This document shows, one piece after another, positions 1 through 43,655 of a stretch of 64,000 bases of DNA. Positions within the stretch are counted from its first letter, which is position 1, and every line of letters begins with the position of its first letter. The translations under genes were made by a program, and so were the position numbers. Origin of the DNA: Gracilariopsis chorda (lineage: Eukaryota; Rhodophyta; Florideophyceae; Gracilariales; Gracilariaceae); NCBI GenBank assembly GCA_003194525.1, contig NBIV01000121.1, forward strand, positions 1 through 64,000, given 5' to 3'. The notes below the pieces were generated by a model. That model worked only from the letters and a program-made list of their open reading frames with translations. It was not told the origin of the DNA and did no database searches.

Positions 1-245
1 GCGCGACACGTTGCTTTGTGTAACTGGCTGGCACTGCAGTCATTATGGGAGTGCCAGCCAGTAAGCAGAAAGCTTTGCTGCTGCTGCTGCTGCTGAATTT
101 TTTGAATGGTGGGGAGGCGTTGCGCCAAATGGGTGATTTGCATGGCAAACGGGGGCGTGCAAGCGAATTTGTGGCGCAACGCCTCCCGTCAGTCAACAAC
201 ACCCCCCTCATACATGTGTAAATCATTAAGAGTGGGGTGTTGAGA
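1..245 (-). mobile_element. Helitron array, partial unit (5' end only)
   Basis: This is the 5' end of a further array unit that continues beyond the left edge of the window. Read on the minus strand it begins TCTCAACACC at 245. Visible parts are a subterminal inverted repeat with arms GGAGGCGTTGCGCCA (113-127) and its complement (172-186), a CTG-trinucleotide run (about 74-95), and a 12-bp perfect inverted repeat CTGGCTGGCACT (24-35 and 50-61). Its 1-70 segment matches 16000-16075, the 5' part of the mini-unit at the other end of the array, and not the other eight units, so the array holds at least two kinds of 5' region. Confidence 0.8.
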
Positions 246-394
246 CAAGAGGAAGCGGCCTTCGGCCGCGGGCGGCGCTGCGCGCGCCGCGGTGGAGGAG
301 TGATAAACAGCGGTGAGGAAAAAAGAGGGTGGAGAAAGCAAAAGCAGAAAAGCAAGTAGTTTAATTCAATGAAAGAAGAATGCAAGAGATATGA

Positions 395-1542
395 TTACGG
401 TTGTGGAGGGATGCAGAACTGAATGGCTTCAGGCAGCACTGGGTTGGCGATGGGAACAGGCATGGGATGAATTGTGTGCGCATTCGAGGGTGTAAGCTGC
501 GGATCATGCAGGAGCAGCACATGGTCGTTCCTTCGAACGCGCGACAATGCGACATACAACTGACCAGCGCAGAAGAAGTTGGATCGCACATCCACAACCA
601 AGCCATCCAACGTCTTTCCCTGTCCTTTGTGAACGGTAGCTGCAAACGCGAGACGAATGGGAAACTGCCTTCGAATCATGCGAATATCTGCGAAAGAAAA
701 CTCGAAGTCGATACGATGCAGGAGCTGTCGTTCGAGCACCTGTCTGTTCTCGTCGAATCGAGCCACCTGCATCGTAAATTGATCGACACGCACGACTACG
801 AACAGCTTTCCGTTGACCACAGCGGGATGCAGCACGTTCCGAATGACCATAACTGGCACACCAATCTTCAAGTCCAAGTTATGAGGCGGTACTACAGTAG
901 GCGCATACTGATACGCAAACTCGGGAACAAAGGTATTGGTGACGTCGGGCTCTGAGTTTGGTACACAGGTTTGTACTGTCGTAGCTGGCGGAAGAGTGAA
1001 GCGTTCACCAGGAAACAGATCCAGCGCTGCCGCATTGTGTTCATCGACCAACTGATTTGTGGAGGCAATGAGCATTTTGCTGAGATCCACATCCTCTTGC
1101 GTCGTGTTGTGAGCCACTTCCACAGGAATTGGTAGGCGGTTTGCATGCCACCGGTAGATCTGAGTGGTAGTGGAGCGTTGTTGGATATTGTGTTTCGTGC
1201 AATGGAACGCAACAGCGACGCAAATGCCGGATCATCCGCTTGGCGTACTTGTTCCGTGAGGTACAGCACTTGAACCGAGCACAATGTCCACAGATCACTC
1301 TTCCACGGCAATTCGTTGAGAATGTTTGTGTACACTCGTCTCACATTTCCACTTGGCTCGGCCTCCATGTACACCTGCGGCACCACTGGAAGCAGTCCGG
1401 TTGTAAGGATTGGTCTGCCTTTACTCACACACCGAAGTGTGCTTTCCGGCCCCAAGAGGTACGACACGGCGGCCGCCCCGGACCCTGCACAGCAAGCTGG
1501 TATTAGGTCCGGTAAACCCTCAGACTTCCTGATCGCCGTCAA
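395..1542 (-). pseudogene. Pif1-type helicase C-terminal fragment, unit 1, frameshifted
   Basis: Encodes the C-terminal part of a Helitron Pif1-like DNA helicase (family knowledge: SF1B helicase fused behind the Rep nuclease). Motif V (VHKGQGKTL) and motif VI (LYVALSRVR) are present. The first part comes from the 5' region of the element (residues such as [17 protein letters not shown]) and is joined to helicase motif III ([13 protein letters not shown]). The reading frame breaks near 1093, where one C of CCTCC is missing compared with the other units, so 395-1123 and 892-1542 lie in different frames. A second local change lies near 965-975. Walker A and motif II are absent, so the product could not act as a helicase even if the frame were open. 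Confidence 0.8.
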
Positions 1543-1820
1543 ACGACCAGTATACCACAGAAGAGCACCTGACTTTTCCCAGATCCGTGGTACTTAGTGG
1601 GTTACTCTTGTGGCGACCTGCACACGAGCTCGGCCTTGCCTAGGTCCCAGGCCAGCAAACAGTGCCCAAAGTAGCAAAAGGTTACGACACTGCGCTATTG
1701 GCCAAGCCTGAATGGGATGCAAAAAAGTGGTTAGGGTCAGCAAGCGAGATGCATTGGGCACTGCGCCAGTGCAGTATATACGTTTGTTGCAGGCAAGTCT
1801 GCAATGAAACTTCAGTATAC

Positions 1821-1926
1821 GCTGCACTGGCGCAGTGCAATTTGCACGTGTCGGAATGCACTGGCGCAGTGCAATTTGCGTGTCGGAATGTGCACTGGCG
1901 CAGTGCAATTTGCCACGTGTCGGAAT
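1821..1926 (-). repeat. 38-bp minisatellite of unit 1 (about 3 copies)
   Basis: Tandem copies built on TGCACTGgcgCAGTGCA, a 7-bp stem with a 3-nt loop, followed by AATTTGCCACGTGTCGGAAT. Two copies are shortened. CACGTG is itself a palindrome. The repeat sits between the 5' end of the element and the helicase fragment. Confidence 0.85.
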
Positions 1927-2358
1927 GAACAGGCGGGGTTTTGCTGCTGAGTGGCTGGCACAACAATTTGATTGTATTGCAAGCCATTCAGCAGCCATTG
2001 CACAGTCAACTTGCAGCAGCAGCAGCTAATTAACTGAACGCTTTGCTGCTGCTGCTGCTGCTGAATTTTTTTAAATGGCAGGGAGGCGTTGCGCCAAATG
2101 GGCGATTTGCATGGGCAAACGGGGGCGTGGAAGAGGATTTTATGGCGCAACGCCTCCATTCAATCAAGAACACCCCCCTCATAGAGGAACAAATCATTAT
2201 AATGGAGAGACAAGAGGAAGCGGCCTTCGGCCGCGGGCGGCGCTGCGCGCCGCAGTGGAGGAGTGATAAAACAGCGGTGAGGAAAAAAGAGGGTGGAGAA
2301 TGCAAAAGCAGAAAAGCAAGTAGTTTAGTTCAATGAAAGAAGAATGCAAGAGATATGA

Positions 2359-3453
2359 TTACGGTTGTGGAGGGATGCAGAACTGAATAGCTTCAGGCAG
2401 CACTGGGTTGGCGATGGGAACAGGCATGGGATGAATTGTGTGCGCATTGGAGGGTGTAAGCTGCGGATCATGCAGGAGCAGCACATGGTCGTTCCTTCGA
2501 ACGCGCGACAATGCGACATACAACTGACCAGCGCAGAAGAAGTTGGATCGCACATCCACAAACCAAGCCATCCAACGTCTTTCCCTGTCCTTTGTGAACG
2601 GTAGCTGCAAACGCGAGACGAATGGGAAACTGCCTTCGAATCTTGCGAATATCTGCGAAAGAAAACTCGAAGTCGATACGATGCAGGAGCTGTCGTTCGA
2701 GCACCTGTCTGTTCTCGTCGAATCGAGCCACCTGCATCGTAAATTGACCGACACGCACGACTACGAACAGCTTTCCGTTGACCACAGCGGGATGCAGCAC
2801 GTTCCGAATGACCATAACTGGCACACCAATCTTCAAGTCCAAGTTATGAGGCGGTACTCCAGTAGGCGCATACTGATACGCAAACTCGGGAACAAAGGTA
2901 TTGGTGACGTCGGGCTCTGAGTTTGGTACACCGTCAGGTTGTACTGTCGTAGCTGGCGGAAGAGTGAAGCGTTCACCAGGAAACAGATCCAGCGCTGCCG
3001 CATTGTGTTCGTCGACCAACTGATTTGTGGAGGCAATGAGCATTTTGCTGAGATCCACATCCTCCTTGCGTCGTGTTGTGAGCCACTTCCACAGGAATTG
3101 GTAGGCGGTTTGCATGCCACCGGTAGATCTGAGTGGTAGTGGAGCGTTGTTGGATATTGTGTTTCGTGCAATGGAACGCAACAGCGACGCAAATGCCGGA
3201 TCATTGGCTTGGCGTACTGTTCCGTGAGGTACAGCACTTGAACCGAGCACAATGTCCACATATCACTCTTCCACGGCAATTCGTTGAGAATGTTTGTGTA
3301 CACTCGTCTCACATTTCCACTTGGCTCGGCCTCCATGTACACCTGCGGCACCACTGGAAGCAGTCCGGTTGTAAGGATTGGTCTGCCTTTACTCACACAC
3401 CGAAGTGTGCTTTCCGAAGAGGTACGACACGGCGGCCGCCCCGGACCCTGCAC
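2359..3453 (-). pseudogene. Pif1-type helicase C-terminal fragment, unit 2, multiply frameshifted
   Basis: Same fused helicase fragment as in units 5 and 6 but the most damaged copy. Compared with its neighbours it has an extra A near 2560 (CACAAACC), a missing base near 3216 (GTACTGTTCC) and a 4-base deletion near 3416 (TTTCCGAAGAGG). The helicase part runs from 2359 to about 3260 and the 5'-derived part up to 3453. Motifs V and VI can be read only across frames. No Walker A. A neutral remnant is the simplest reading. Confidence 0.8.
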
Positions 3454-3781
3454 AGCAAGCTGGTATTAGTCCGGTAAACCCTCAGACTTCCTGATCGCCG
3501 TCAAACGACCAGTATACCACAGAGGAGCACCTGACTTTTCCCAGATCCGTGGTACTTAGTGGGTTACTCTTGTGGCGACCTGCACACGAGCTCGGCCTTG
3601 CCTAGGTCCCAGGCCAGCAAACAGTGCCCAAAGTAGCAAAAGGTTACGACACTGCGCTATTGGCCAAGCCTGAATGGGATGGAAAATAGTGGTTAGGGTC
3701 AGCAAGCGAGATGCATTTGGCACTGCGCCAGTGCAGTATATACGTCTGTTGCAGGCAAGTCTGCAATGAAACTTCAGTATA

Positions 3782-3909
3782 CACTGCACTGGCGCAGTGC
3801 AATTTGCCACGTGTCGGAATGCGCTGCACTGGCGCAGTGCAATTTGCCACGTGTCGGAATGCAGTGCAATTTGCCACGTGTCGGAATGAAATTTGCCACG
3901 TGTCGGAAT
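3782..3909 (-). repeat. 38-bp minisatellite of unit 2
   Basis: Two full copies of the hairpin plus CCACGTG unit followed by two shortened copies that keep only the AATTTGCCACGTGTCGGAAT part. Confidence 0.85.
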
Positions 3910-4319
3910 GTTTTGCTGCTGAGTGGCTGGCACACAATTTGATTGTATTGCAAGCCATTCAGCAGCCATTGCACAGTCAACTTGCAGCAGCAGCAGCAAT
4001 TAACTGAACGCTTTGCTGCTGCTGCTGCTGCTGAATTTTTTAAATGGTAGGGAGGCGTTGCGCCAAATGGCAGTTTGCATGGTAGGGGGCAACAGGGCGG
4101 TTTTTGGCGCAACGCCTCCATCAATCAAGAACACCCCCCTCATACATGTGTAAATCATTAAGAGTGGAGAGACAAGAGGAAGCGGCCTTCGGCCGCGGGC
4201 GGCGCTGCGCGCCGCGGTGGAGGAGTGATAAACAGCGGTGAGGAAAAAAGAGGGTGGAGAAAGCAAAAGCAGAAAAGCAAGTAGTTTAATTCAATGAAAA
4301 AAGAATGCAAGAGATATGA

Positions 4320-5474
4320 TTACGGTTGTGGAGGGATGCAGAACTGAATGGCTTCAGGCAGCACTGGGTTGGCGATGGGAACAGGCATGGATGAATTGTG
4401 TGCGCATTCGAGGGTGTAAGCTGCGGATCATGCAGGAGCAGCACATGGTCGTTCCTTCGAACGCGCGACAATGCGACATACAACTGACCAGCGCAGAAGA
4501 AGTTGGATCGCACATCCACAACCAACCAAGCCATCCAACGTCTTTCCCTGTCCTTTGTGAACGGTAGCTGCAAACGCGAGACGAATGGGAAACTGCCTTC
4601 GAATCATGCGAATATCTGCGAAAGAAAACTCGAAGTCGATACGATGCAGGAGCTGTCGTTCGAGCACCTGTCTGTTCTCGTCGAATCGAGCCACCTGCAT
4701 CGTAAATTGATCGACACGCACGACTACGAACAGCTTTCCGTTGACCACAGCGGGATGCAGCACGTTCCGAATGACCATAACTGGCACACCAATCTTCAAG
4801 TCCAAGTTATGAGGCGGTACTACAGTAGGCGCATACTGATACGCAAACTCGGGAACAAAGGTATTGGTGACGTCGGGCTCTGAGTTTGGTACACCGTCAG
4901 GTTGTACTGTCGTAGCTGGCGGAAGAGTGAAGCGTTCACCAGGAAACAGATCCAGCGCTGCCGCATTATGTTCGTCGACCAACTGATTTGTGGAGGCAAT
5001 GAGCATTTTGCTGAGATCCACATCCTCCTTGCGTCGTGTTGTGAGCCACTTCCACAGGAATTGGTAGGCGGTTTGCATGCCACCGGTAGATCTGAGTGGT
5101 AGTGGAGCGTTGTTGGATATTGTGTTTCGTGCAATGGAACGCAACAGCGACGCAAATGCCGGATCATCCGCTTGGCGTACTTGTTCCGTGAGGTACAGCA
5201 CTTGAACCGAGCACAATGTCCACAGATCACTCTTCCACGGCAATTCGTTGAGAATGTTTGTGTACACTCGTCTCACATTTCCACTTGGCTCGGCCTCCAT
5301 GTACACCTGCGGCACCACTGGAAGCAGTCCGGTTGTAAGGATTGGTCTGCCTTTACTCACACACCGAAGTGTGCTTTCCGGCCCCAAGAGGTACGACACG
5401 GCGGCCGCCCCGGACCCTGCACAGCAAGCTGGTATTAGGTCCGGTAAACCCTCAGACTTCCTGATCGCCGTCAA
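4320..5474 (-). pseudogene. Pif1-type helicase C-terminal fragment, unit 3, frameshifted near the end
   Basis: A frame of 348 codons (4428-5474) covers the 5'-derived segment, the motif III junction and the helicase up to the motif V region. It breaks near 4520, where ACCA is duplicated (CAACCAACCAAG). Motif VI therefore lies in another frame, and a 1-base deletion near 4387 shifts the tail again. The frame has no ATG before the MEAEPSG segment, so any initiation would be internal. Walker A and motif II are missing as in units 1, 2, 4, 5 and 6. Confidence 0.8.
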
Positions 5475-5748
5475 ACGACCAGTATACCAGAGAGCACCTG
5501 ACTTTTCCCAGATCCGTGGTACTTAGTGGGTTACTCTTGTGGCGACCTGCACACGAGCTCGGCCTTGCCTAGGTCCCAGGCCAGCAAACAGTGCCCAAAG
5601 TAGCAAAAGGTTACGACACTGCGCTATTGGCCAAGCCTGAATGGGATGCAAAAAGTGGTTAGGGTCAGCAAGCGAGATGCATTGGGCACTGCGCCAGTGC
5701 AGTATATACGTTTGTTGCAGGCAAGTCTGCAATGAAACTTCAGTATAC

Positions 5749-5865
5749 GCTGCACTGGCGCAGTGCAATTTGCACGTGTCGGAATGCGCTGCACTGGCGC
5801 AGTGCAATTTGCCACGTGTCGGAATGCACTGCACTGGCGCAGTGCAATTTGCCACGTGTCGGAAT
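5749..5865 (-). repeat. 38-bp minisatellite of unit 3 (3 copies)
   Basis: Three tandem copies of the TGCACTGgcgCAGTGCA hairpin plus TTTGCCACGTGTCGGAAT unit, the first lacking one C of GCCACG. Confidence 0.88.
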
Positions 5866-6294
5866 GAACAGGCGGGGTTTTGCTGCTGAGTGGCTGGCAC
5901 AACAATTTGATTGTATTGCAAGCCATTCAGCAGCCATTGCACAGTCAACTTGCAGCAGCAGCAGCTAATTAACTGAACGCTTTGCTGCTGCTGCTGCTGC
6001 TGAATTTTTTAAATGGCAGGGAGGCGTTGCGCCAAATGGGCGATTTGCATGGGCAAACGGGGGCGTGGAAGAGGATTTTATGGCGCAACGCCTCCATTCA
6101 ATCAAGAACACCCCCCTCATAGAGGAACAAATCATTATAATGGAGAGACAAGAGGAAGCGGCCTTCGGCCGCGGGCGGCGCTGCGCGCCGCGTGGAGGAG
6201 TGATAAACAGCGGTGAGGAAAAAAGAGGGTGGAGAATGCAAAAGCAGAAAAGCAAGTAGTTTAGTTCAATGAAAGAAGAATGCAAGAGATATGA

Positions 6295-7448
6295 TTACGG
6301 TTGTGGAGGGATGCAGAACTGAATAGCTTCAGGCAGCACTGGGTTGGCGATGGGAACAGGCATGGGATGAATTGTGTGCGCATTCGAGGGTGTAAGCTGC
6401 GGATCATGCAGGAGCAGCACATGGTCGTTCCTTCGAACGCGCGACAATGCGACATACAACTGACCAGCGCAGAAGAACTTGGATCGCACATCCACAACCA
6501 AGCCATCCAACGTCTTTCCCTGTCCTTTGTGAACGGTAGCTGCAAACGCGAGACGAATGGGAAACTGCCTTCGAATCTTGCGAATATCTGCGAAAGAAAA
6601 CTCGAAGTCGATACGATGCAGGAGCTGTCGTTCGAGCACCTGTCTGTTCTCGTCGAATCGAGCCACCTGCATCGTAAATTGACCGACACGCACGACTACG
6701 AACAGCTTTCCGTTGACCACAGCGGGATGCAGCACGTTTCCGAATGACCATAACTGGCACACCAATCTTCAAGTCCAAGTTATGAGGCGGTACTCCAGTA
6801 GGCGCATACTGATACGCAAACTCGGGAACAAAGGTATTGGTGACGTCGGGCTCTGAGTTTGGTACACCGTCAGGTTGTACTGTCGTAGCTGGCGGAAGAG
6901 TGAAGCGTTCACCAGGAAACAGATCCAGCGCTGCCGCATTGTGTTCATCGACCAACTGATTTGTGGAGGCAATGAGCATTTTGCTGAGATCCACATCCTC
7001 CTTGCGTCGTGTTGTGAGCCACTTCCACAGGAATTGGTAGGCGGTTTGCATGCCACCGGTAGATCTGAGTGGTAGTGGAGCGTTGTTGGATATTGTGTTT
7101 CGTGCAATGGAACGCAACAGCGACGCAAAATGCCGGATCATTGGCTTGGCGTACCTGTTCCGTGAGGTACAGCACTTGAACCGAGCACAATGTCCACATA
7201 TCACTCTTCCACGGCAATTCGTTGAGAATGTTTGTGTACACTCGTCTCACATTTCCACTTGGCTCGGCCTCCATGTACACCTGCGGCACCACTGGAAGCA
7301 GTCCGGTTGTAAGGATTGGTCTGCCTTTACTCACACACCGAAGTGTGCTTTCCGTCCCCAAGAGGTACGACACGGCGGCCGCCCCGGACCCTGCACAGCA
7401 AGCTGGTATTACGTCCGGTAAACCCTCAGACTTCCTGATCGCCGTCAA
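6295..7448 (-). pseudogene. Pif1-type helicase C-terminal fragment, unit 4, two frameshifts
   Basis: Same fused frame as unit 6, broken by an extra T near 6737 (CACGTTTCCG) and an extra A near 7127 (GACGCAAAATG). Pieces are 6295-6765, 6404-7204 and 6945-7448 in three frames. Motifs V and VI lie in the first piece. Because unit 6 is open and almost the same, these two indels are likely recent, or possibly assembly errors. Confidence 0.8.
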
Positions 7449-7726
7449 ACGACCAGTATACCACAGAGGAGCACCTGACTTTTCCCAGATCCGTGGTACT
7501 TAGTGGGTTACTCTTGTGGCGACCTGCACACGAGCTCGGCCTTGCCTAGGTCCCAGGCCAGCAAACAGTGCCCAAAGTAGCAAAAGGTTACGACACTGCG
7601 CTATTGGCCAAGCCTGAATGGGATGGAAAATAGTGGTTAGGGTCAGCAAGCGAGATGCATTTGGCACTGCGCCAGTGCAGTATATACGTCTGTTGCAGGC
7701 AAGTCTGCAATGAAACTTCAGTATAC

Positions 7727-7884
7727 ACTGCACTGGCGCAGTGCAATTTGCCACGTGTCGGAATGCGCTGCACTGGCGCAGTGCAATTTGCCACGTGTCG
7801 GAATGCGCTGCACTGGCGCAGTGCAATTTGCCACGTGTCGGAATGCGCTGCACTGGCGCAGTGCAATTTGCCACGTGTCGGAAT
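7727..7884 (-). repeat. 38-bp minisatellite of unit 4 (4 copies)
   Basis: Four near-perfect tandem copies of the hairpin plus CCACGTGTCGGAATG unit. Confidence 0.9.
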
Positions 7885-8320
7885 GAACAGGCGGGGTTTT
7901 GCTGCTGAGTGGCTGGCACAACAATTTGATTGTATTGCAAGCCATTCAGCAGCCATTGCACAGTCAACTTGCAGCAGCAGCAGCAAATTAACTGAACGCT
8001 TTGCTGCTGCTGCTGCTGCTGAATTTTTTAAATGGTAGGGAGGCGTTGCGCCAAATTGCAGTTTTGCATGCTCGTAGAGGGGCATACAGGGCGGTTTATT
8101 GGCGCACCGCCTCCCATCAATCAAGAACACCCCCCTCATACATGTGTAAATCATTAAGAGTGGGGTGTTGAGACAAGAGGAAGCGGCCTTCGGCCGCGGG
8201 CGGCGCTGCGCGCCGCGGTGGAGGAGTGATAAACAGCGGTGAGGAAAAAAGAGGGTGGAGAAAGCAAAAGCAGAAAAGCAAGTAGTTTAATTCAATGAAA
8301 AAAGAATGCAAGAGATATGA

Positions 8321-9472
8321 TTACGGTTGTGGAGGGATGCAGAACTGAATGGCTTCAGGCAGCACTGGGTTGGCGATGGGAACAGGCATGAGATGAATTG
8401 TGTGCGCATTCGAGGGTGTAAGCTGCGGATCATGCAGGAGCAGCACATGGTCGTTCCTTCGAACGCGCGACAATGCGACATACAACTGACCAGCGCAGAA
8501 GAAGTTGGATCGCACATCCACAACCAAGCCATCCAACGTCTTTCCCTGTCCTTTGTGAACGGTAGCTGCAAACGCGAGACGAATGGGAAACTGCCTTCGA
8601 ATCATGCGAATATCTGCGAAAGAAAACTCGAAGTCGATACGATGCAGGAGCTGTCGTTCGAGCACCTGTCTGTTCTCGTCGAATCGAGCCACCTGCATCG
8701 TAAATTGATCGACACGCACGACTACGAACAGCTTTCCGTTGACCACAGCGGGATGCAGCACGTTCCGAATGACCATAACTGGCACACCAATCTTCAAGTC
8801 CAAGTTATGAGGCGGTACTACAGTAGGCGCATACTGATACGCAAACTCGGGAACAAAGGTATTGGTGACGTCGGGCTCTGAGTTTGGTACACCGTCAGGT
8901 TGTACTGTCGTAGCTGGCGGAAGAGTGAAGCGTTCACCAGGAAACAGATCCAGCGCTGCCGCATTGTGTTCATCGACCAACTGATTTGTGGAGGCAATGA
9001 GCATTTTGCTGAGATCCACATCCTCCTTGCGTCGTGTTGTGAGCCACTTCCACAGGAATTGGTAGGCGGTTTGCATGCCACCGGTAGATCTGAGTGGTAG
9101 TGGAGCGTTGTTGGATATTGTGTTTCGTGCAATGGAACGCAACAGCGACGCAAATGCCGGATCATCCGCTTGGCGTACTTGTTCCGTGAGGTACAGCACT
9201 TGAACCGAGCACAATGTCCACAGATCACTCTTCCACGGCAATTCGTTGAGAATGTTTGTGTACACTCGTCTCACATTTCCACTTGGCTCGGCCTCCATGT
9301 ACACCTGCGGCACCACTGGAAGCAGTCCGGTTGTAAGGATTGGTCTGCCTTTACTCACACACCGAAGTGTGCTTTCCGGCCCCAAGAGGTACGTCACGGC
9401 GGCCGCCCCGGACCCTGCACAGCAAGCTGGTATTAGGTCCGGTAAACCCTCAGACTTCCTGATCGCCGTCAA
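8321..9472 (-). CDS. Fused 5'-region/Pif1 helicase C-terminal ORF, unit 5 (open, 383 codons)
   Basis: Open frame of 383 codons. Residues 1-47 derive from the element's 5' region, the counterpart of 20440-20640 in the related full-length element. From about residue 50 it is Pif1-type helicase from motif III on ([10 protein letters not shown]), with motif V VHKGQGKT at 305-312 and motif [11 protein letters not shown] at about 330-338. The frame shown starts at a TTG; the first ATG is at 9298, residue 59, giving 325 codons. Walker A and the DEASM motif II are missing, so ATPase activity is not expected. The element part of the frame is kept in phase across the deletion junction. It could be a retained nucleic-acid-binding fragment or simply a young remnant. 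Expression is unproven. Confidence 0.6.
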   Translation of the reverse strand: MTAIRKSEGLPDLIPACCAGSGAAAVTYLLGPESTLRCVSKGRPILTTGLLPVVPQVYMEAEPSGNVRRVYTNILNELPWKSDLWTLCSVQVLYLTEQVRQADDPAFASLLRSIARNTISNNAPLPLRSTGGMQTAYQFLWKWLTTRRKEDVDLSKMLIASTNQLVDEHNAAALDLFPGERFTLPPATTVQPDGVPNSEPDVTNTFVPEFAYQYAPTVVPPHNLDLKIGVPVMVIRNVLHPAVVNGKLFVVVRVDQFTMQVARFDENRQVLERQLLHRIDFEFSFADIRMIRRQFPIRLAFAATVHKGQGKTLDGLVVDVRSNFFCAGQLYVALSRVRRNDHVLLLHDPQLTPSNAHTIHLMPVPIANPVLPEAIQFCIPPQP

Positions 9473-9750
9473 ACGACCAGTATACCACAGAAGAGCACCT
9501 GACTTTTCCCAGATCCGTGGTACTTAGTGGGTTACTCTTGTGGCGACCTGCACACGAGCTCGGCCTTGCCTAGGTCCCAGGCCAGCAAACAGTGCCCAAA
9601 GTAGCAAAAGGTTACGACACTGCGCTATTGGCCAAGCCTGAATGGGATGCAAAAAAGTGGTTAGGGTCAGCAAGCGAGATGCATTGGGCACTGCGCCAGT
9701 GCAGTATATACGTTTGTTGCAGGCAAGTCTGCAATGAAACTTCAGTATAC

Positions 9751-9868
9751 GCTGCACTGGCGCAGTGCAATTTGTCACGTGTCGGAATGCGCTGCACTGG
9801 CGCAGTGCAATTTGCCACGTGTCGGAATGCACTGCACTGGCGCAGTGCAATTTGCCACGTGTCGGAAT
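9751..9868 (-). repeat. 38-bp minisatellite of unit 5 (3 copies)
   Basis: Three tandem copies of the hairpin plus CACGTG unit; the first has GTCACG in place of GCCACG. Confidence 0.88.
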
Positions 9869-10297
9869 GAACAGGCGGGGTTTTGCTGCTGAGTGGCTGG
9901 CACAACAATTTGATTGTATTGCAAGCCATTCAGCAGCCATTGCACAGTCAACTTGCAGCAGCAGCAGCTAATTAACTGAACGCTTTGCTGCTGCTGCTGC
10001 TGCTGAATTTTTTAAATGGCAGGAGGCGTTGCGCCAAATGGGCGATTTGCATGGGCAAACGGGGGCGTGGAAGAGGATTTTATGGCGCAACGCCTCCATT
10101 CAATCAAGAACACCCCCCTCATAGAGGAACAAATCATTATAATGGAGAGACAAGAGGAAGCGGCCTTCGGCCGCGGGCGGCGCTGCGCGCCGCAGTGGAG
10201 GAGTGATAAACAGCGGTGAGGAAAAAAGAGGGTGGAGAATGCAAAAGCAGAAAAGCAAGTAGTTTAGTTCAATGAAAGAAGAATGCAAGAGATATGA

Positions 10298-11449
10298 TTA
10301 CGGTTGTGGAGGGATGCAGAACTGAATAGCTTCAGGCAGCACTGGGTTGGCGATGGGAACAGGCATGGGATGAATTGTGTGCGCATTGGAGGGTGTAAGC
10401 TGCGGATCATGCAGGAGCAGCACATGGTCGTTCCTTCGAACGCGCGACAATGCGACATACAACTGACCAGCGCAGAAGAACTTGGATCGCACATCCACAA
10501 CCAAGCCATCCAACGTCTTTCCCTGTCCTTTGTGAACGGTAGCTGCAAACGCGAGACGAATGGGAAACTGCCTTCGAATCTTGCGAATATCTGCGAAAGA
10601 AAACTCGAAGTCGATACGATGCAGGAGCTGTCGTTCGAGCACCTGTCTGTTCTCGTCGAATCGAGCCACCTGCATCGTAAATTGACCGACACGCACGACT
10701 ACGAACAGCTTTCCGTTGACCACAGCGGGATGCAGCACGTTCCGAATGACCATAACTGGCACACCAATCTTCAAGTCCAAGTTATGAGGCGGTACTCCAG
10801 TAGGCGCATACTGATACGCAAACTCGGGAACAAAGGTATTGGTGACGTCGGGCTCTGAGTTTGGTACACCGTCAGGTTGTACTGTCGTAGCTGGCGGAAG
10901 AGTGAAGCGTTCACCAGGAAACAGATCCAGCGCTGCCGCATTGTGTTCATCGACCAACTGATTTGTGGAGGCAATGAGCATTTTGCTGAGATCCACATCC
11001 TCCTTGCGTCGTGTTGTGAGCCACTTCCACAGGAATTGGTAGGCGGTTTGCATGCCACCGGTAGATCTGAGTGGTAGTGGAGCGTTGTTGGATATTGTGT
11101 TTCGTGCAATGGAACGCAACAGCGACGCAAATGCCGGATCATTGGCTTGGCGTACCTGTTCCGTGAGGTACAGCACTTGAACCGAGCACAATGTCCACAT
11201 ATCACTCTTCCACGGCAATTCGTTGAGAATGTTTGTGTACACTCGTCTCACATTTCCACTTGGCTCGGCCTCCATGTACACCTGCGGCACCACTGGAAGC
11301 AGTCCGGTTGTAAGGATTGGTCTGCCTTTACTCACACACCGAAGTGTGCTTTCCGTCCCCAAGAGGTACGACACGGCGGCCGCCCCGGACCCTGCACAGC
11401 AAGCTGGTATTACGTCCGGTAAACCCTCAGACTTCCTGATCGCCGTCAA
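10298..11449 (-). CDS. Fused 5'-region/Pif1 helicase C-terminal ORF, unit 6 (open, 383 codons)
   Basis: Subtype B counterpart of the unit 5 frame, with the same length and the same fusion point. It differs at scattered residues: V for L in GLPDVIP, T for P in GTEST, N for D in RQANDP, and K for M in ADIRKIRR. Motifs III, V and VI are intact; Walker A and motif II are missing. The nominal start is TTG and the first ATG opens MEAEPSG. That both subtypes keep the frame open while having diverged in sequence would suit some constraint, but the four broken sister copies argue against a strong one. Confidence 0.6.
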
Positions 11450-11727
11450 ACGACCAGTATACCACAGAGGAGCACCTGACTTTTCCCAGATCCGTGGTAC
11501 TTAGTGGGTTACTCTTGTGGCGACCTGCACACGAGCTCGGCCTTGCCTAGGTCCCAGGCCAGCAAACAGTGCCCAAAGTAGCAAAAGGTTACGACACTGC
11601 GCTATTGGCCAAGCCTGAATGGGATGGAAAATAGTGGTTAGGGTCAGCAAGCGAGATGCATTTGGCACTGCGCCAGTGCAGTATATACGTCTGTTGCAGG
11701 CAAGTCTGCAATGAAACTTCAGTATAC

Positions 11728-11885
11728 ACTGCACTGGCGCAGTGCAATTTGCCACGTGTCGGAATGCGCTGCACTGGCGCAGTGCAATTTGCCACGTGTC
11801 GGAATGCGCTGCACTGGCGCAGTGCAATTTGCCACGTGTCGGAATGCGCTGCACTGGCGCAGTGCAATTTGCCACGTGTCGGAAT
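11728..11885 (-). repeat. 38-bp minisatellite of unit 6 (4 copies)
   Basis: Four near-perfect tandem copies, matching the array in unit 4. Confidence 0.9.
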
Positions 11886-12322
11886 GAACAGGCGGGGTTT
11901 TGCTGCTGAGTGGCTGGCACAACAATTTGATTGTATTGCAAGCCATTCAGCAGCCATTGCACAGTCAACTTGCAGCAGCAGCAGCAAATTAACTGAACGC
12001 TTTGCTGCTGCTGCTGCTGCTGAATTTTTTTAAATGGTAGGGAGGCGTTGCGCCAAATTGCAGTTTTGCATGCTCGTAGAGGGGCATACAGGGCGGTTTA
12101 TTGGCGCACCGCCTCCCATCAATCAAGAACACCCCCCTCATACATGTGTAAATCATTAAGAGTGGGGTGTTGAGACAAGAGGAAGCGGCCTTCGGCCGCG
12201 GGCGGCGCTGCGCGCCGCGGTGGAGGAGTGATAAACAGCGGTGAGGAAAAAAGAGGGTGGAGAAAGCAAAAGCAGAAAAGCAAGTAGTTTAATTCAATGA
12301 AAAAAGAATGCAAGAGATATGA

Positions 12323-13777
12323 TTACGGTTGTGGAGGGATGCAGAACTGAATGGCTTCAGGCAGCACTGGGTTGGCGATGGGAACAGGCATGAGATGAAT
12401 TGTGTGCGCATTCGAGGGTGTAAGCTGCGGATCATGCAGGAGCAGCACATGGTCGTTCCTTCGAACGCGCGACAATGCGACATACAACTGACCAGCGCAG
12501 AAGAAGTTGGATCGCACATCCACAACCAAGCCATCCAACGTCTTTCCCTGTCCTTTGTGAACGGTAGCTGCAAACGCGAGACGAATGGGAAACTGCCTTC
12601 GAATCATGCGAATATCTGCGAAAGAAAACTCGAAGTCGATACGATGCAGGAGCTGTCGTTCGAGCACCTGTCTGTTCTCGTCGAATCGAGCCACCTGCAT
12701 CGTAAATTGATCGACACGCACGACTACGAACAGCTTTCCGTTGACCACAGCGGGATGCAGCACGTTCCGAATGACCATAACTGGCACACCAATCTTCAAG
12801 TCCAAGTTATGAGGCGGTACTACAGTAGGCGCATACTGATATGCAAACTCGGGGACGATAGAACTGGCAAAGTCAGACTCTGGGTTCTGTCCACGAACAG
12901 GTTGCACGGTTGTCGCTGACGGAAGAGTGAAGCGCTCACCAGGAAACAGATCTAGCGCTGCCGCATTATGTTCGTCGACCAACTGATTTGTGGAGGCAAT
13001 GAGCATTTTGCTGAGATCCACATCCTCCTTGCGTCGTGTTGTGAGCCACTTCCACAGGAATTGGTAGGCGGTTTGCATGCCACCGGTAGATCTGAGTGGT
13101 AGTGGAGCGTTGTCGGATATTGTGTTTCGTGCAATGGAACGTAACAGCGACGCAAATGCCGGATCATCCGCTTGGCGTACTTGTTCCGTGAGATACAGCA
13201 CTTGAACCGAGCACAATGTCCACAGATCACTCTTCCACGGCAATTCGTTGAGAATGTTTGTGTACACTCGTCTCACATTTCCACTTGGCTCGGCCTCCAT
13301 GTACACCTGCGGCACCACTGGAAGCAGCTGGGAGTAGTCGCCGGATAGAACGATGGTCAAGCCCCCAAACGGAGGTGGGTTTTCCATTCCACTGCAGCGA
13401 AGATCTTTGAGCAACGCATCCATGAGTTCGAAGAGCTTTCTTGAGAGCATGGACGCCTCATCCAAGACGAGCAGTTGTATTTCGCGTAGCAGTTCTGCAC
13501 GTTGAGATCGGGGACCGTACTTTGACAAAGTGGCTGTAGTGTTGCTTGTGCTGTCCCTATCAGCTACACCCAGTCCGTACTGACACAGTGCAATTTGCCA
13601 CGTGTTGGAATGCACTGCACTGGCGCAGTGCAATTTGCCACGTGTTGGAATGTACTGCACTGGGGCAGTGCAATTTGCCACGTGTCGGAATGAACCGCTG
13701 GGTTTCTGCTGCTGAGTGGCTGGCACTACAATTTGATTGTATTGCAAGCCATTCAGCAGCCATTGCACAGTCAACAT
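12323..13777 (-). CDS. Minisatellite-fused Pif1 helicase fragment, unit 7 (open, 484 codons)
   Basis: Open 484-codon frame with a real ATG at 13777. Residues 1-67 are translated from the 5' region and minisatellite (repeated HSDTW/TRGKLHCASA-like peptides). Residues from about 69 on are Pif1-type helicase: motif II DEASM at 106-110, motif III GDYSQLLPV at 146-154, motif V VHKGQGKT at 406-413 and motif [12 protein letters not shown] at 431-440. Walker A, which would lie just upstream, has been deleted, so a working ATPase is unlikely. The deletion joined the repeat to the helicase in frame. Unit 8 has the same frame. Confidence 0.65.
   Translation of the reverse strand: MLTVQWLLNGLQYNQIVVPATQQQKPSGSFRHVANCTAPVQYIPTRGKLHCASAVHSNTWQIALCQYGLGVADRDSTSNTTATLSKYGPRSQRAELLREIQLLVLDEASMLSRKLFELMDALLKDLRCSGMENPPPFGGLTIVLSGDYSQLLPVVPQVYMEAEPSGNVRRVYTNILNELPWKSDLWTLCSVQVLYLTEQVRQADDPAFASLLRSIARNTISDNAPLPLRSTGGMQTAYQFLWKWLTTRRKEDVDLSKMLIASTNQLVDEHNAAALDLFPGERFTLPSATTVQPVRGQNPESDFASSIVPEFAYQYAPTVVPPHNLDLKIGVPVMVIRNVLHPAVVNGKLFVVVRVDQFTMQVARFDENRQVLERQLLHRIDFEFSFADIRMIRRQFPIRLAFAATVHKGQGKTLDGLVVDVRSNFFCAGQLYVALSRVRRNDHVLLLHDPQLTPSNAHTIHLMPVPIANPVLPEAIQFCIPPQP
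13580..13691 (-). repeat. 38-bp minisatellite of unit 7 (3 copies, coding)
   Basis: Three copies with GTGTTGGAAT or GTGTCGGAAT ends. Here the repeat lies inside the 484-codon frame. Confidence 0.85.
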
Positions 13778-14124
13778 GCAGCAGCAGCAGCTAATTAACT
13801 GAACGCTTTGCTGCTGCTGCTGCTGCTGCTGAATTTTTTAAATGGTAGGGAGGCGTTGCGCCAAATGGGCGATTTGGATGGGCAGACGGGGGCGTGCAAG
13901 AGGATTTTGTGGCGCAACGCCTCCATTCAATCAAGAACACCCCCCTCATAGAGGAACAAATCATTATAATGGAGAGACAAGAGGAAGCGGCCTTCGGCCG
14001 CGGGCGGCGCTGCGCGCCGCGGTGGAGGAGTGATAAACAGCGGTGAGGAAAAAAGAGGGTGGAGAAAGCAAAAGCAGAAAAGCAAGTAGTTTAATTCAAT
14101 GAAAAAAGAATGCAAGAGATATGA

Positions 14125-15579
14125 TTACGGTTGTGGAGGGATGCAGAACTGAATGGCTTCAGGCAGCACTGGGTTGGCGATGGGAACAGGCATGAGATGA
14201 ATTGTGTGCGCATTCGAGGGTGTAAGCTGCGGATCATGCAGGAGCAGCACATGGTCGTTCCTTCGAACGCGCGACAATGCGACATACAACTGACCAGCGC
14301 AGAAGAACTTGGATCGCACATCCACAACCAAGCCATCCAACGTCTTTCCCTGTCCTTTGTGAACGGTAGCTGCAAACGCGAGACGAATGGGAAACTGCCT
14401 TCGAATCATGCGAATATCTGCGAAAGAAAACTCGAAGTCGATACGATGCAGGAGCTGTCGTTCGAGCACCTGTCTGTTCTCGTCGAATCGAGCCACCTGC
14501 ATCGTAAATTGATCGACACGCACGACTACGAACAGCTTTCCGTTGACCACAGCGGGATGCAGCACGTTCCGAATGACCATAACTGGCACACCAATCTTCA
14601 AGTCCAAGTTATGAGGCGGTACTACAGTAGGCGCATACTGATATGCAAACTCGGGGACGATAGAACTGGCAAAGTCAGACTCTGGGTTCTGTCCACGAAC
14701 AGGTTGCACGGTTGTCGCTGACGGAAGAGTGAAGCGCTCACCAGGAAACAGATCCAGCGCTGCCGCATTATGTTCGTCGACCAACTGATTTGTGGAGGCA
14801 ATGAGCATTTTGCTGAGATCCACATCCTCCTTGCGTCGTGTTGTGAGCCACTTCCACAGGAATTGGTAGGCGGTTTGCATGCCACCGGTAGATCTGAGTG
14901 GTAGTGGAGCGTTGTCGGATATTGTGTTTCGTGCAATGGAACGTAACAGCGACGCAAATGCCGGATCATCCGCTTGGCGTACTTGTTCCGTGAGATACAG
15001 CACTTGAACCGAGCACAATGTCCACAGATCACTCTTCCACGGCAATTCGTTGAGAATGTTTGTGTACACTCGTCTCACATTTCCACTTGGCTCGGCCTCC
15101 ATGTACACCTGCGGCACCACTGGAAGCAGCTGGGAGTAGTCGCCGGATAGAACGATGGTCAAGCCCCCAAACGGAGGTGGGTTTTCCATTCCACTGCAGC
15201 GAAGATCTTTGAGCAACGCATCCATGAGTTCGAAGAGCTTTCTTGAGAGCATGGACGCCTCATCCAAGACGAGCAGTTGTATTTCGCGTAGCAGTTCTGC
15301 ACGTTGAGATCGGGGACCGTACTTTGACAAAGTGGCTGTAGTGTTGCTTGTGCTGTCCCTATCAGCTACACCCAGTCCGTACTGACACAGTGCAATTTGC
15401 CACGTGTTGGAATGCACTGCACTGGCGCAGTGCAATTTGCCACGTGTTGGAATGTACTGCACTGGGGCAGTGCAATTTGCCACGTGTCGGAATGAACCGC
15501 TGGGTTTCTGCTGCTGAGTGGCTGGCACTACAATTTGATTGTATTGCAAGCCATTCAGCAGCCATTGCACAGTCAACAT
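14125..15579 (-). CDS. Minisatellite-fused Pif1 helicase fragment, unit 8 (open, 484 codons)
   Basis: Same 484-codon ATG-initiated frame as unit 7, with motif II DEASM, motif III GDYSQLLPV, motif V and motif VI at the same positions. It differs from unit 7 by K for N in VRSKFF. That K is shared with subtype B units 4 and 6, which suggests sequence exchange between units. Walker A is absent, so helicase activity is not expected. Confidence 0.65.
   Translation of the reverse strand: MLTVQWLLNGLQYNQIVVPATQQQKPSGSFRHVANCTAPVQYIPTRGKLHCASAVHSNTWQIALCQYGLGVADRDSTSNTTATLSKYGPRSQRAELLREIQLLVLDEASMLSRKLFELMDALLKDLRCSGMENPPPFGGLTIVLSGDYSQLLPVVPQVYMEAEPSGNVRRVYTNILNELPWKSDLWTLCSVQVLYLTEQVRQADDPAFASLLRSIARNTISDNAPLPLRSTGGMQTAYQFLWKWLTTRRKEDVDLSKMLIASTNQLVDEHNAAALDLFPGERFTLPSATTVQPVRGQNPESDFASSIVPEFAYQYAPTVVPPHNLDLKIGVPVMVIRNVLHPAVVNGKLFVVVRVDQFTMQVARFDENRQVLERQLLHRIDFEFSFADIRMIRRQFPIRLAFAATVHKGQGKTLDGLVVDVRSKFFCAGQLYVALSRVRRNDHVLLLHDPQLTPSNAHTIHLMPVPIANPVLPEAIQFCIPPQP
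15381..15493 (-). repeat. 38-bp minisatellite of unit 8 (3 copies, coding)
   Basis: Matches the unit 7 repeat copy for copy. Confidence 0.85.
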
Positions 15580-15778
15580 GCAGCAGCAGCAGCTAATTAA
15601 CTGAACGCTTTGCTGCTGCTGCTGCTGCTGCTGAATTTTTTAAATGGTAGGGAGGCGTTGCGCCAAATGGGCGATTTGGATGGGCAGACGGGGGCGTGCA
15701 AGAGGATTTTGTGGCGCAACGCCTCCATTCAATCAAGAACACCCCCTCATAGAGGAACAAATCATTATAATGGAGAGA

Positions 15779-16248
15779 CAAGTGGAAACGGCCTTCGGCC
15801 GTGGGCGGCGTTGCGCGCCGCGTTGGTTTTGTAGCTTTTTGTATTTCGTAGCGTTCGGAGGCTCTCCGAGCACTTTGCTCGCTTGCGCTCGCAATAGCGC
15901 TCGTAGAACCACGGGGCGCCGCGGCGCCTAGAGTATGTGGAGCCGTTAGGGTTTTTGTTTAGGTGCCTAAATTGACTGCAGTGCCAGCCAATGATGAGAA
16001 AGCGTGACACGTTGCTTTGTGTAACTGGGTGGCACTGCAGTCATTATGGGAGTGCCAGCCAATAAGCAGGAAGCTTTGCTGCTGCTGCTGCTGCTGAATT
16101 TTTTAAATGGTAGGGAGGCGTTGCGCCAAATGGCAGTTTTGCATGCGCGTAGAGGGGCATACAGAGCGGTTAATTGGCGCACCGCCTCCTATCAATCAAC
16201 AACACCCCCCTTATACATGTGTAAATCATTAAGAGTGGGGTGTTGAGA
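15779..16248 (-). mobile_element. 470-bp mini-Helitron capping the array
   Basis: Most upstream unit in the minus-strand reading. Its 5' terminus TCTCAACACC is at 16248, preceded by A in the flank (A|TC), and its 3' end lies at 15779 after the paired GC hairpins (about 15790-15823). The helicase and minisatellite are gone. Between the ends are the CTG run, the subterminal inverted repeat and about 150 bp (15835-15990) not seen in other units, containing the palindrome GGCGCCGCGGCGCC at 15915-15928. Length and structure are those of a non-autonomous Helitron. Confidence 0.8.
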
Positions 16249-19888: not shown

Positions 19889-20147
19889 TCTCTCTATTCT
19901 ATAGATTTACAAGCGTATGAGAGCCTAAATATTTATTGAAAGGAGGCGGTGCGCCAATAAACATGCCAGCATTCCCTCTTCAGCACATGCATAAACCTCT
20001 TTTGGCGCGACTCTTCCCTACTGTTCTAAAAATTCACTACAAGCACCAGCACCAGCAACAGCAGCAAAGCTCAAATGTTTTTGGCTGCAGCTTTTTGTGG
20101 ACTGCCAGTGCTGCACAGTAACTGCCACTATAGTAAAGGACTGTAGT

Positions 20148-20180
20148 GCTGGCACTACAGTCATTTACTGTAGTGCCAGC
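20148..20180. repeat. 14-bp perfect inverted repeat, 5-nt loop
   Basis: GCTGGCACTACAGT, loop CATTT, then its exact complement. It is the counterpart of the GTGGCACT/AGTGCCA inverted repeats in the partial unit (24-61) and mini-unit (about 16025-16060), so it is a conserved part of the element's 5' region. Confidence 0.85.
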
Positions 20181-20966
20181 CACTCAGCAGTAGTTGATTT
20201 GCACGACACGTGGCTGCTCTTTTGCACTGCGCCAGTGCAGAAAAATGCACAACGCATATATATACTGCACTGGCGCAATGCCGAATGCATCTTGCTTGGT
20301 GACCCTAAGCACTATTTTGCAACCCATTTCGGCTCAATCAATAGCGCAGTGTCGTACTTTTTCACTACTTTGGGCATTGTTTGATAGCATGGGACCTTGG
20401 GAAGGTCAAGCACGTGTGTATGTTGCGACAAGATAAACCCACTGAGTACCACGAATCTGGAAAAAGTCAGGTCCTAATCTGTTGTATACTGATCTTTTGA
20501 TGGTTATCCAAGAAGTCCGACGATTTCCTCGATTTAATAACAGCTTGTTGTGCCGGGTCCGGGGTGGCTGCCGTATACTACCTTTTAGGCCCGGAAAGCA
20601 CACCTTGATGTTTGAGTACAGGCAGACGAATCCTTAGAATCTGACGCGGGTTAAAAATTAAATGCCTAAAGAACCAGCTTGGCACATGCCGCCCATCATA
20701 ATCCAACAGGAATGTGTCGACAGTCCCAGTGCTGCTCACAACTGCATTCGGTAAATATAATTCTTGCATCAATTTGTTAATTGCTCAGGCGACTACGCCT
20801 AGTGAGTACAAGGAAACAAACCGCAACCAGGTTTTCAGTTTCACAATTTTGTTATATTTGAAATGCTCTGGGACCCTTCCAATTTTTTTTGGGTTTGAAA
20901 AACTTGAATTGATTCTTTCTTTTTCTGATATTATAATGATGCGAAGAGGTCCATGTCCAAAGTCTA

Positions 20967-21221
20967 GTGGGCCTAGAACGAACTCTGGAGGTGCTCAAGC
21001 GAACTCTGGAAGAGTCAGAGCCAATTCTAGAGGTACAGGAGCCAATTCTGCAGGTTTCCGAGCCAGTTCTGGAGGGACTAGAGCCAATACCAGGGGTGCA
21101 TAAGGCAACGCTGGAGGTGCCAGAGAGAATTCTGGAGGTGCCAGAGAGAATTCTGGAGGTGCCAGAGCCAATTCCGGAGGCACCAGACAGAATGTTGGAG
21201 GTGCTCGCGCAAACGCTGGAG
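20967..21221 (+). repeat. 21-bp coding minisatellite (N-S-G-G-A-R type)
   Basis: Imperfect copies of GGAGGTGCCAGAGAGAATTC-type units with a 21-bp period, encoding repeats such as GGARANS. The same repeat resumes at 22061-22125 after an insertion. Part of the N-terminal region of the Helitron protein. Confidence 0.75.
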
Positions 21222-21229
21222 GCGCCTGA

Positions 21230-22053
21230 AGTGCAACGCCCTCAGGGAGGGATTCTTGGTACTTGATCGTTTTCCCGATATTATCGGTTGTGTAGTGTGT
21301 ATATGAACTACGCCCCACAATGGTGGGTATGGACACGTGGGACACGGTTTTGGGTCAATTGGCGGTTGGCCACAGTAGTGGATGTTGCCACGAAATGTGG
21401 ACTATTTTAGTTAATATTATTTATTATTTTCACACCCATTTCTGGGAAGCTAGTACTTAGTGCGACGGCGCACTGCCGTCGCACCAGTAAACCTTCCCCA
21501 ACAAGGGACCCCAACCTGGGGAATTGGCTCTAGTTGTTGCCGCCTGCGCGCGTGCTCTACTCCTCCTTGGAGGGAAACGCCGTAAACCACGGGACATCTA
21601 ACCCCCTTGCACGTCTAAAGAAGCCCATCCTTGGGAGTATAATTGTTCCAATCATATTGGTGTTTCGCCCTGTATAGGGAGTCCTGCCCACCGGCATTGC
21701 CGTATCTGTTCGTCGCTCTCGCGACTCACTTCGTCCTCTCTTCCTCCTCTTCGCCCTTCCTTTTCTCCCTTTTTAGGGTAGCACCTCCCGCTACCCGCGG
21801 CCCTCGTGTGCGCATCTGCTCACACACCCCCACTTACGTGGAAACATACCTCTACTGAGGATCACACCCCGCTCACGCGGATACCGATTCTTCGCCTTCA
21901 CCTCCCTGCGCGAGTTGCGACAGGTGTCCCTGGTCTTACAAACCGGCTTCGCCGTGACACCTCTGGGAGGTCTCTACCCAACTGGGTTCACCTCGTGAGA
22001 GGAAGATACCGAACGTCTTTCGGTGTTTTTCCCCTTTGGGGCATTGCACCACA
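21230..22053. mobile_element. Putative 824-bp insertion with short terminal inverted repeats
   Basis: The 21-bp repeat is interrupted by 824 bp. The ends are GTGCAACGCCC (from 21231) and GGGGCATTGCAC (ending 22049), which are inverted with respect to each other with few mismatches. GCGCCTGA (21222-21229) and GCGCCCGA (22054-22061) flank it and could be an 8-bp target duplication with one difference, as hAT-like elements make. Inside is a GCGACGGC hairpin (about 21451-21473) but no transposase. The two ends are not perfectly symmetric, so this is a moderate call. Confidence 0.5.
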
Positions 22054-22061
22054 GCGCCCGA

Positions 22062-22720
22062 GCCAATTTTGGTGTTGCCAGACCTAATTCGGGAGGTGCC
22101 AGAATGAACTCAGGCAGCGCAAGGCCAGGAGCTGGACGACCTCGACGATTGCCAGTTCCTCCCGCTCCAGATGACATGCCGGTAAATGAGAGCGGAGCAC
22201 ACGTGCTGAGACCCATTGCTCCAGCCGTGGAAGAGGACGAAATTACTCCTGCACCTACTTCGGTTACAGCTACAGATAGCACAAACGCTGCTACAGCCAT
22301 GGGTCCGTTGCCATAGGTCTACCAACTTCGTGCCCAATTCCTGGATTTCTGGAGTTTGTGAGAGGCTTTCAAAGTCACATTCCACTGCCTCCGATTCCTC
22401 CCCCTCTCCAATCTATGCCTGCATAACAGATGCCGGTTGCGATGGAATTGGAAGAGGATGAGATCATCCTTGCTCCTTCACAGCCACTGCTGTCACCACC
22501 GCCGCCACAGCAGCCTGCTCTGCCACAAGCTGAACAAGAGGAAGAACAGATGCCAGTCCCGATGGAATTGGAAGAGGATGAGATCACCCCGGCTCCCTCA
22601 CACCCGCTGCCACAGCCTGTGCTGCCACAAGCTGAACAGGAAGAACAACAGGTGCCCATTCCGATGGAAGTGGAAGAGGGTGAGATCACACCGCCTCCCT
22701 CACACCAGCCGCCGCATTAG
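22062..22720 (+). pseudogene. Helitron N-terminal acidic/proline repeat region
   Basis: Encodes the continuation of the NSGGAR repeat, then three clear copies of a unit of about 35 residues built on MELEEDEITPAPS followed by PLPQPVLPQAEQEE, plus an earlier weaker copy (VEEDEITPAP). Frames 22023-22316 and 22430-22720 are out of phase and each ends in a stop, so it is broken. Acidic and proline-rich low complexity suggests a disordered linker ahead of Rep. I know no domain for it. Confidence 0.55.
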
Positions 22721-22951
22721 CCACAGCAACAGCTTGATACGAGGATCATGCAGTGTGCTGGACGTCCGGATCGAGGACTGCATGCCGTGTAATATGCGTG
22801 GGAAACCACGGCTGATGAAGCTTGGAATGGTCCATCCATCCGTGCAAGCGTTCCAGAGTTTGAGACGCCTTCCACTGCTGGTGAAAGGCAATGTGGAAGA
22901 TGCGGCGAGCACGCACACACGCTCTCCTCCTGCCCGTACCCGGACTGGACA

Positions 22952-27478: not shown

Positions 27479-27524
27479 ATATGCTTTATCCACCCATTTC
27501 TTCTTCTCACTGCTTTTAATGACT

Positions 27525-27575
27525 CCTCCACTACAACGCGCAGCGTCGCCTGCAGCCCAAAGCCGGTTTCTGTTG
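27525..27575 (+). other. Helitron 3' terminus (degenerate GC hairpin)
   Basis: CTCCACTACAACGCGCAGCG... GCCGGTTTCTGTTG aligns by eye with the array 3' end (CTCCACTGCGGCGCGCAGCGCC... GCCGCTTCCTCTTG). The hairpin arms are eroded. The next base in the flank is T. Confidence 0.65.
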
Positions 27576-34715: not shown

Positions 34716-34810
34716 GTTTGGGCAGTTACTCTTTGCAATAGATGGGGGTTTCAGCTCGACGTCACGTATGGACTTTCGGAGTGAGCTGAGGAAGTGCGAA
34801 TGGAGCAACC

Positions 34811-43560: not shown

Positions 43561-43655
43561 GGTTGCTTCATTCGCACTTCCTCAGCTCACTCCGAAAGTC
43601 CATACGTGACGTCGAGCTGAAACCCCCATCTATTGCAAAGAGTAACTGCCCAAAC

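Follow-up and report, generated by a model that had tools for sequence, protein, structure and literature searches.

The stretch analysed here (the window) comprises positions 1 to 64,000 of contig NBIV01000121.1, referred to below as C121, of the red alga Gracilariopsis chorda (assembly GCA_003194525.1, 91.3 Mb in 1081 contigs). In agreement with a red algal host, 7 phycobilisome-linker matches are found in the assembly, and a linker of 493 amino acids has phycobilisome linkers as its best relatives of solved structure, including LRC2 of the red algal entries 5y6p and 6kgx. On its minus strand, positions 1 to 16248 are occupied by a spacer-free head-to-tail array of Helitrons, and further arrays are found elsewhere in the genome. 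We suggest that such an array is, rather likely, a stack of separate Helitrons that accumulated in one host A|T site and was later changed by local duplication. This reading draws on a single A|T site per array, mostly perfect junctions, mixed units, an age gradient along the arrays, local dimers, and the finding that blocks of units were not copied between the sampled arrays above chance. More tentatively, it is possible that the 5' end of a resident Helitron is a dedicated landing site for its own family (and, separately, also in a second family), with arrays that grow unit by unit at one edge and form a readable time series.

The elements of the window array are oriented 5'-TCTC...CTTG-3' on the minus strand, and all nine junctions read CTTG|TCTC (GAGA|CAAG on the plus strand). 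The array is made up of eight units of 1.8-2.0 kb, one complete unit of 470 bp and one partial unit (1-245) that is cut where the array runs off the start of C121. The ten units are thus a minimum, as in the original prediction (made from the sequence alone), which had counted at least ten. The nine junction positions and nine unit lengths given there proved exact, and its description of Helitrons in head-to-tail order without spacers holds for the window. The 3' side of the array lies off the contig. The units and the host base at the 5' edge are as follows.

1-245, minus strand: 5' portion of a unit truncated at the start of the contig, with the type B 5' end TCTCAACACCCC
246-2210, minus strand: unit of 1965 bp, type A 5' end, helicase remnant
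2211-4172, minus strand: unit of 1962 bp, hybrid A/B 5' end
4173-6148, minus strand: unit of 1976 bp, type A, sharing 99.6% identity with 8174-10150 (gaps excluded)
6149-8173, minus strand: unit of 2025 bp, type B, sharing 99.95% identity with 10151-12175 (gaps excluded)
8174-10150, minus strand: unit of 1977 bp, type A
10151-12175, minus strand: unit of 2025 bp, type B
12176-13977, minus strand: unit of 1802 bp, type A, sharing 99.89% identity with 13978-15778 (gaps excluded)
13978-15778, minus strand: unit of 1801 bp, type A
15779-16248, minus strand: complete mini-Helitron of 470 bp, both ends present, at the 5' edge of the array
16249, minus strand: host A before the outermost 5' TCTC, the 5' side of a canonical A|T target

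The nearest relative of the mini-Helitron at 15779-16248 (98.9% identical) is found in an array on C24. A repeat of ~40 bp lies inside the 1.8-2.0-kb units in ~2 to 4 copies (e.g., 7728-7885 and 11729-11886).

Joints and edges of the arrays

Parts of 18 array regions, including the window, were sampled, and 111 complete units were parsed. These comprise 83 minis (432-481 bp), 22 long units, 4 full-length units and 2 others (587 and 3828 bp), which fall outside the length classes and were omitted from the identity tests (n=109). Left unparsed were a 1-kb stretch of C282 with damaged ends and any unit truncated where a fetched stretch stopped. Arrays can be mixed: a single A|T site may hold minis of 0.43-0.48 kb, units of 1.8-2.0 kb in which helicase remnants persist, and Rep-PIF1 elements of 6.6 kb.

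Host sequence between units, which the original prediction had named as evidence that would overturn it, was not found in the window, and 91 of the 93 listed neighbour pairs in the 18 regions abut exactly. The two remaining pairs are separated by a 39-nt 5' stub (C38) and by the unparsed stretch on C282; one further joint on C38 carries an extra T. Where the 5' host edge is visible, an A stands before the first unit in 13 of 14 regions; the exception is C289, where a 21-nt 5' stub, with an A before it, stands ahead of the unit. A T follows the last unit at all seven visible 3' host edges. For C373, C7, C40 and C38, the first fetched unit is preceded by another unit. Since the arrays begin after A and end before T, the whole array occupies a single canonical A|T site.

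Short 5' stubs located directly before a new 5' end (L027 6706-6726, 21 nt; L045 554-592, 39 nt; C29 249275-249301, 27 nt) are perhaps aborted starts of replication or insertion. On C76 (215084-215522; L034 1084-1522) a mini lies inverted inside the 5' part of another unit.

A genome-wide search for the junction, proposed as a check in the original prediction, bore it out. The exact 3'-end pattern occurs 555 times in the assembly and its reversed control is absent (0 occurrences); 440 of the 555 intact 3' ends (79%) continue directly into TCTC. On these counts, chance origin of the junctions is excluded. The base that follows is T at 552 of the 555 3' ends. The exact type B 5' end is present 304 times in the genome, 81 of them preceded by A. 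Between 262.8 and 298.0 kb on contig C7 there are 22 listed minus-strand 3' ends, every one of which is a junction (22/22), and the steps from junction to junction correspond to mini, 2-kb and 6.5-6.6-kb sizes, plus one of 7.4 kb. Two A-preceded 5' ends on C7 suggest that more than one insertion took place there.

An older joint is located in the window outside the array and in the opposite orientation.

19889-27575, plus strand: decayed element related to the full-length one (85.8% identity in the main block), TCTC start directly after an eroded 3' end at 19888, followed by T

The boundary 19888/19889 is an old, eroded head-to-tail junction, so that tandem joining in this family is not only recent. 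The decayed element also holds tandem repeats of 21 bp and 102 bp.

Origin of the arrays

In the sequence of events that we favour, an element would first insert canonically between a host A and T. With the resident in place, its first T and the host A would constitute another A|T (A|TCTC), the target for a later Helitron of the same family. Insertion at this position would keep the A|T rule and would join the units perfectly as CTTG|TCTC, leaving nothing of the host between them. Repeated insertion would give rise to a head-to-tail array with the youngest unit at the 5' edge and the oldest at the 3' edge. The pull is probably the resident's own 5' end, where the Rep nuclease must cut exactly in order to start transposition, and a nick left there may be the acceptor for an incoming Rep-bound circle. 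Thereafter, single units or, more commonly, pairs of neighbours would be duplicated locally, by unequal exchange or dimer insertion, which would have made the A-B dimers of ~4 kb in the window.

Neighbouring units are seldom alike. Of the 93 neighbouring pairs, 67 join units of one length class, and just 4 reach 99% identity or more; among pairs two units apart, 10 of 75 do so. For 69 of 109 units the closest relative sits in another array. Two-unit blocks shared between arrays were counted against shuffled unit order, giving 1 vs 0.8 at 98% identity, 0 vs 0.5 at 98.5%, and 11 vs 9.0 at 97% (p 0.27), whereas within arrays the count at 98% was 25 vs 5.0. The rarity of alike neighbours, together with blocks that recur within but not between arrays, argues that units seem to arrive singly and then to be duplicated locally, mostly by two. 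The original prediction had invoked unequal crossing-over for the expansion of a concatemer; its local expansion is upheld by the pairs two units apart and by the excess of within-array blocks, and the concatemer as starting point is not (see below). Satellite-like behaviour, also foreseen there, would imply homogeneous tandem monomers that exchange keeps alike; the arrays do not fit this, having few near-identical neighbours and three length classes mixed. Spread of arrays en bloc was considered and rejected within the power of 18 regions, between-array blocks not being above shuffles.

The arrays are also polar. Divergence of a unit from the nearest unit in other sampled arrays rises from 5' to 3' (permutation p=0.0006, n=94, with local duplicates collapsed; p=0.0004 on all 109 units), and the worst p on leaving out one array at a time is 0.007. 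The sign is as expected in 11 of 15 arrays, with rho 0.9 in C38 and in C121, where few units are left after collapsing. Minis of at least 450 bp lie towards the 3' side (p=0.0002), and these longer minis may be read as older, judging from their mostly lower identities.

Several points weigh against serial insertion at the 5' edge. The polarity has the opposite sign in 4 of 15 arrays (C289, C76, C47, C40), and a comparison of 5'-edge with 3'-edge units alone is not significant (p=0.11). For minis only, in a round with three drop settings and two measures, p is 0.03 without C38 (second measure 0.01) and 0.08 without both C38 and C24 (second measure 0.02). The polarity test was refined over three rounds, and its p-value was not pre-planned. 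The gradient could also stem from 5'-edge units being the preferred donors. The block test covers 18 regions, and rare block transfer is compatible with its result. Some joints are imperfect, namely the extra T and the 39-nt stub on C38, the stub at the start of C289 and the damaged 1 kb on C282, and the hybrid 5' end of the unit at 2211-4172 suggests that recombination also acts. An empty site for the window array was not found, the 5' flank having no full match elsewhere in the genome (best 67% over ~400 bases); for other arrays, the matches listed place each host flank at no fetched locus but its own. Lastly, a second Helitron family (see next section) forms a near-homogeneous array of full-length-size units on C389, which fits a concatemer or unequal exchange better.

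Homologous recombination of a circular Helitron intermediate with a resident copy would likewise leave two head-to-tail units with a perfect joint, and it accounts for mixed arrays as well. The 5' ends of types A and B are found on similar bodies, one 5' end in the window is a hybrid, and a full-length unit on C76 has a mixed 3' end, all of which fit such recombination. What it does not predict is the 5'-to-3' age gradient, and 3' ends have rarely been exchanged between classes: 24 of 26 long and full-length units finish with the nine bases TTCCTCTTG, a terminus that none of the 83 minis has. We regard this route as unlikely for the arrays as a whole.

The original prediction had favoured a read-through concatemer, in which the 3' terminator is missed, multimers of one element are inserted whole, and unequal crossing-over expands them. 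Perfect junctions and the four adjacent near-identical pairs agree with this, and Helraiser circles with precise 5'-3' joints have been documented (PMC4778049). The second family on C389 agrees with it as well, showing 12 junctions at steps of 6.11-6.17 kb; of the 11 listed intergenic copies (query included), 10 are 98-100% identical to the query and one is 93%. As the main origin, this proposal is not supported. Most neighbouring pairs (89 of 93) are of another length class or below 99% identity, closest relatives mostly sit elsewhere, length classes are mixed at one site, blocks are not common to the sampled arrays above chance, and there is the age gradient. A one-shot concatemer as the general origin was therefore rejected on the block, polarity and neighbour tests, and the concatemer reading overall appears a little less credible than recombination with circles. 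Read-through or dimer insertion may nevertheless account for the small number of near-identical neighbours and for the 6.1-kb array of the second family, which is nearly homogeneous.

A donor effect would predict an identical gradient. Here the arrays would form by any route, and 5'-edge units would look young since only the unit beside the host A donates efficiently; Helraiser requires an intact left end (PMC5876387), in agreement with this. By itself, a donor effect gives no account of unlike elements at one A|T site, and some internal units also have relatives elsewhere that are at least 99% identical, so we consider it improbable. Wrong joining of dispersed Helitrons during assembly is the least credible explanation and hardly to be entertained: the window array does lie at a contig end, and those on C289, C373 and C1024 at or near one, but there are 440 junctions, six arrays flanked by host sequence on either side within contigs of 79-285 kb (C275, C107, C282, C183, C76, C90), an exact base-level A...T rule at the edges, and a decayed old junction in the window itself.

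Family assignment and other features of the window

The terminal structures and open reading frames (ORFs) of the window units that bear on family assignment are the following.

255-269, minus strand: 3' terminal hairpin GCGGCCGAAGGCCGC, whose end lies 9 nt short of the 3' terminus and 5 nt ahead of CTTG, z -2.95
272-290, minus strand: second GC hairpin near the 3' end
16200-16245, minus strand: possible 5' foldback AACACCCC/GGGGTGTT in type B ends, z -2.9
12323-13777, minus strand: ORF of 484 amino acids, PIF1 helicase remnant (PF05970, E 2e-19)
14125-15579, minus strand: ORF of 484 amino acids, near copy of ORF 12323-13777
8321-9472, minus strand: ORF of 383 amino acids, Pif1 2B domain; near copy at 10298-11449

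The core of the 3' hairpin is kept in all nine complete window units. A covarying 5' hairpin is not claimed: the foldbacks of types A and B differ by eye, variants within type A are uncompensated, and the test on the hybrid A/B end gave no signal (z -0.45). A search of Rfam at the gathering threshold gave no hit in the window.

The coding content noted in the original prediction is confirmed as PIF1 helicase remnants. In the ORFs tested, the 1.8-2.0-kb window units retain the C-terminal part of a PIF1-type helicase (PF05970, PF21530), and no Rep domain was found in the two window-unit ORFs searched for domains. A 6.6-kb unit of the C78 array has the family ends and matches to both PF14214 (Rep, Helitron_like_N) and PF05970; this copy looks decayed, since the PF14214 match is split over two ORFs. 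PF14214 and the family ends are also present in a 6.6-kb unit of the C275 array. Given 6.6-kb Rep/PIF1 units with identical ends in other arrays, the window units are read as non-autonomous derivatives of a Helitron family in the same genome.

Membership of the Helitron superfamily is indicated by a member with both Rep and PIF1 helicase, as expected of an autonomous element (the C78 unit), and by the 5' TC and the hairpin ~10 nt before the 3' end, a TCTC start being present in 110 of 111 parsed units. As in Helitron1, insertion is between A and T without target duplication, judged from flanking bases. The 3' end deviates from the CTRR of Helitron1, being CTTG in all 111 parsed units. CTTG ends are also noted in PMC4778049, where they occur in maize Helitrons and in some Helraiser insertions, and the family is therefore filed as a Helitron with a variant 3' tetranucleotide, and not as a strict consensus member. 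Helitron2/Helentron is marked by asymmetric terminal inverted repeats, an extra endonuclease and a T-rich or TT target; the target observed here is A|T.

The second Helitron family ends in ...GGAGCCACTTG, starts with TCCC and has its own Rep and PIF1 domains. It shows no nucleotide match to the first family at E 1e-3, and 100 of its 155 3' ends run into TCCC. For its C389 array, concatemers or unequal exchange may have played the larger part. On C942 and C1081 the second family forms arrays with steps of ~2.24 kb (8 and 7 listed junctions, respectively, with one wider gap on C1081).

Additional features of the window, outside the array, are listed here.

31697-35392 and 42979-46674: inverted duplication whose 3.7-kb arms share 99.5% identity; both have a haem peroxidase ORF of 591 amino acids with identical translation (PF03098 matched in the one arm tested)
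48853-51165 and 54777-57002: another inverted pair, older than the first (76-79% identity); its ORFs resemble, by eye, the N-terminal part of a Helitron protein
27618-31066 and 59114-60546: ORFs judged by eye to resemble retrotransposon polyproteins

Comparison with known systems

How Helitrons choose their targets, and why they occur head to tail, are unsettled questions. The hundreds of joints in one genome make it testable whether the Rep cut at a resident 5' end acts as an acceptor. If it does, target choice would be self-directed, arrays would be dated records of subfamily activity, and tandem DNA would arise without replication slippage or concatemers. Repeat annotation with a single consensus may hide such arrays, and the arrays may break assemblies, as at the start of C121.

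Tandem Helitrons are already known; it is the scale, completeness, mixture and polarity that appear to be new. Arrays of complete, mixed Helitrons with an age gradient were not found in the open-access literature searched. For the genome of Gracilariopsis lemaneiformis, Helitrons are given as 1.71% (PMC5970526), with no mention of arrays in the text consulted.

Long tandem arrays derived from Helitrons are also found at plant centromeres (Xiong et al. 2016, as reviewed in PMC12628747). According to that review their units are truncated and decayed, and many arrays have multiple 5' ends per single 3' end. In contrast, the parsed units of G. chorda have both ends, full-length elements are included and the arrays are mixed; each of the 111 units has its own 3' end, and 5' ends in excess are limited to three stubs of 21-39 nt. 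Tandem copies have likewise been described for the fungal FoHeli and as a three-copy tandem in Metarhizium acridum, for which insertion into the 5' end was considered (PMC5148889). FoHeli is of the Helitron2 type, with asymmetric inverted repeats, another target and few cases. Helraiser shares canonical A|T insertion, and its circle joint connects the 3' end to the 5' TC (PMC4778049, PMC5876387). That joint is present in extrachromosomal circles and follows a CTAG end, whereas those of G. chorda are in genomic arrays and follow CTTG.

Perfect end-to-end joints were also reported for head-to-tail Helitrons of Myotis (Pritham and Feschotte, cited in PMC2267711), where they were read as tandem repeats, no A standing between the units. 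If units insert at the 5' edge, this argument fails. The nearest known case is a pair of maize Helitrons (PMC2267711), in which different elements lie side by side, explained by consecutive insertion, with a joint of G/T instead of A/T. The authors name the host A plus the first T of the resident as one possible insertion order. The maize case consists of one pair with its order left unresolved; G. chorda has joints in the hundreds, many-unit arrays and an age gradient that favours the 5' order.

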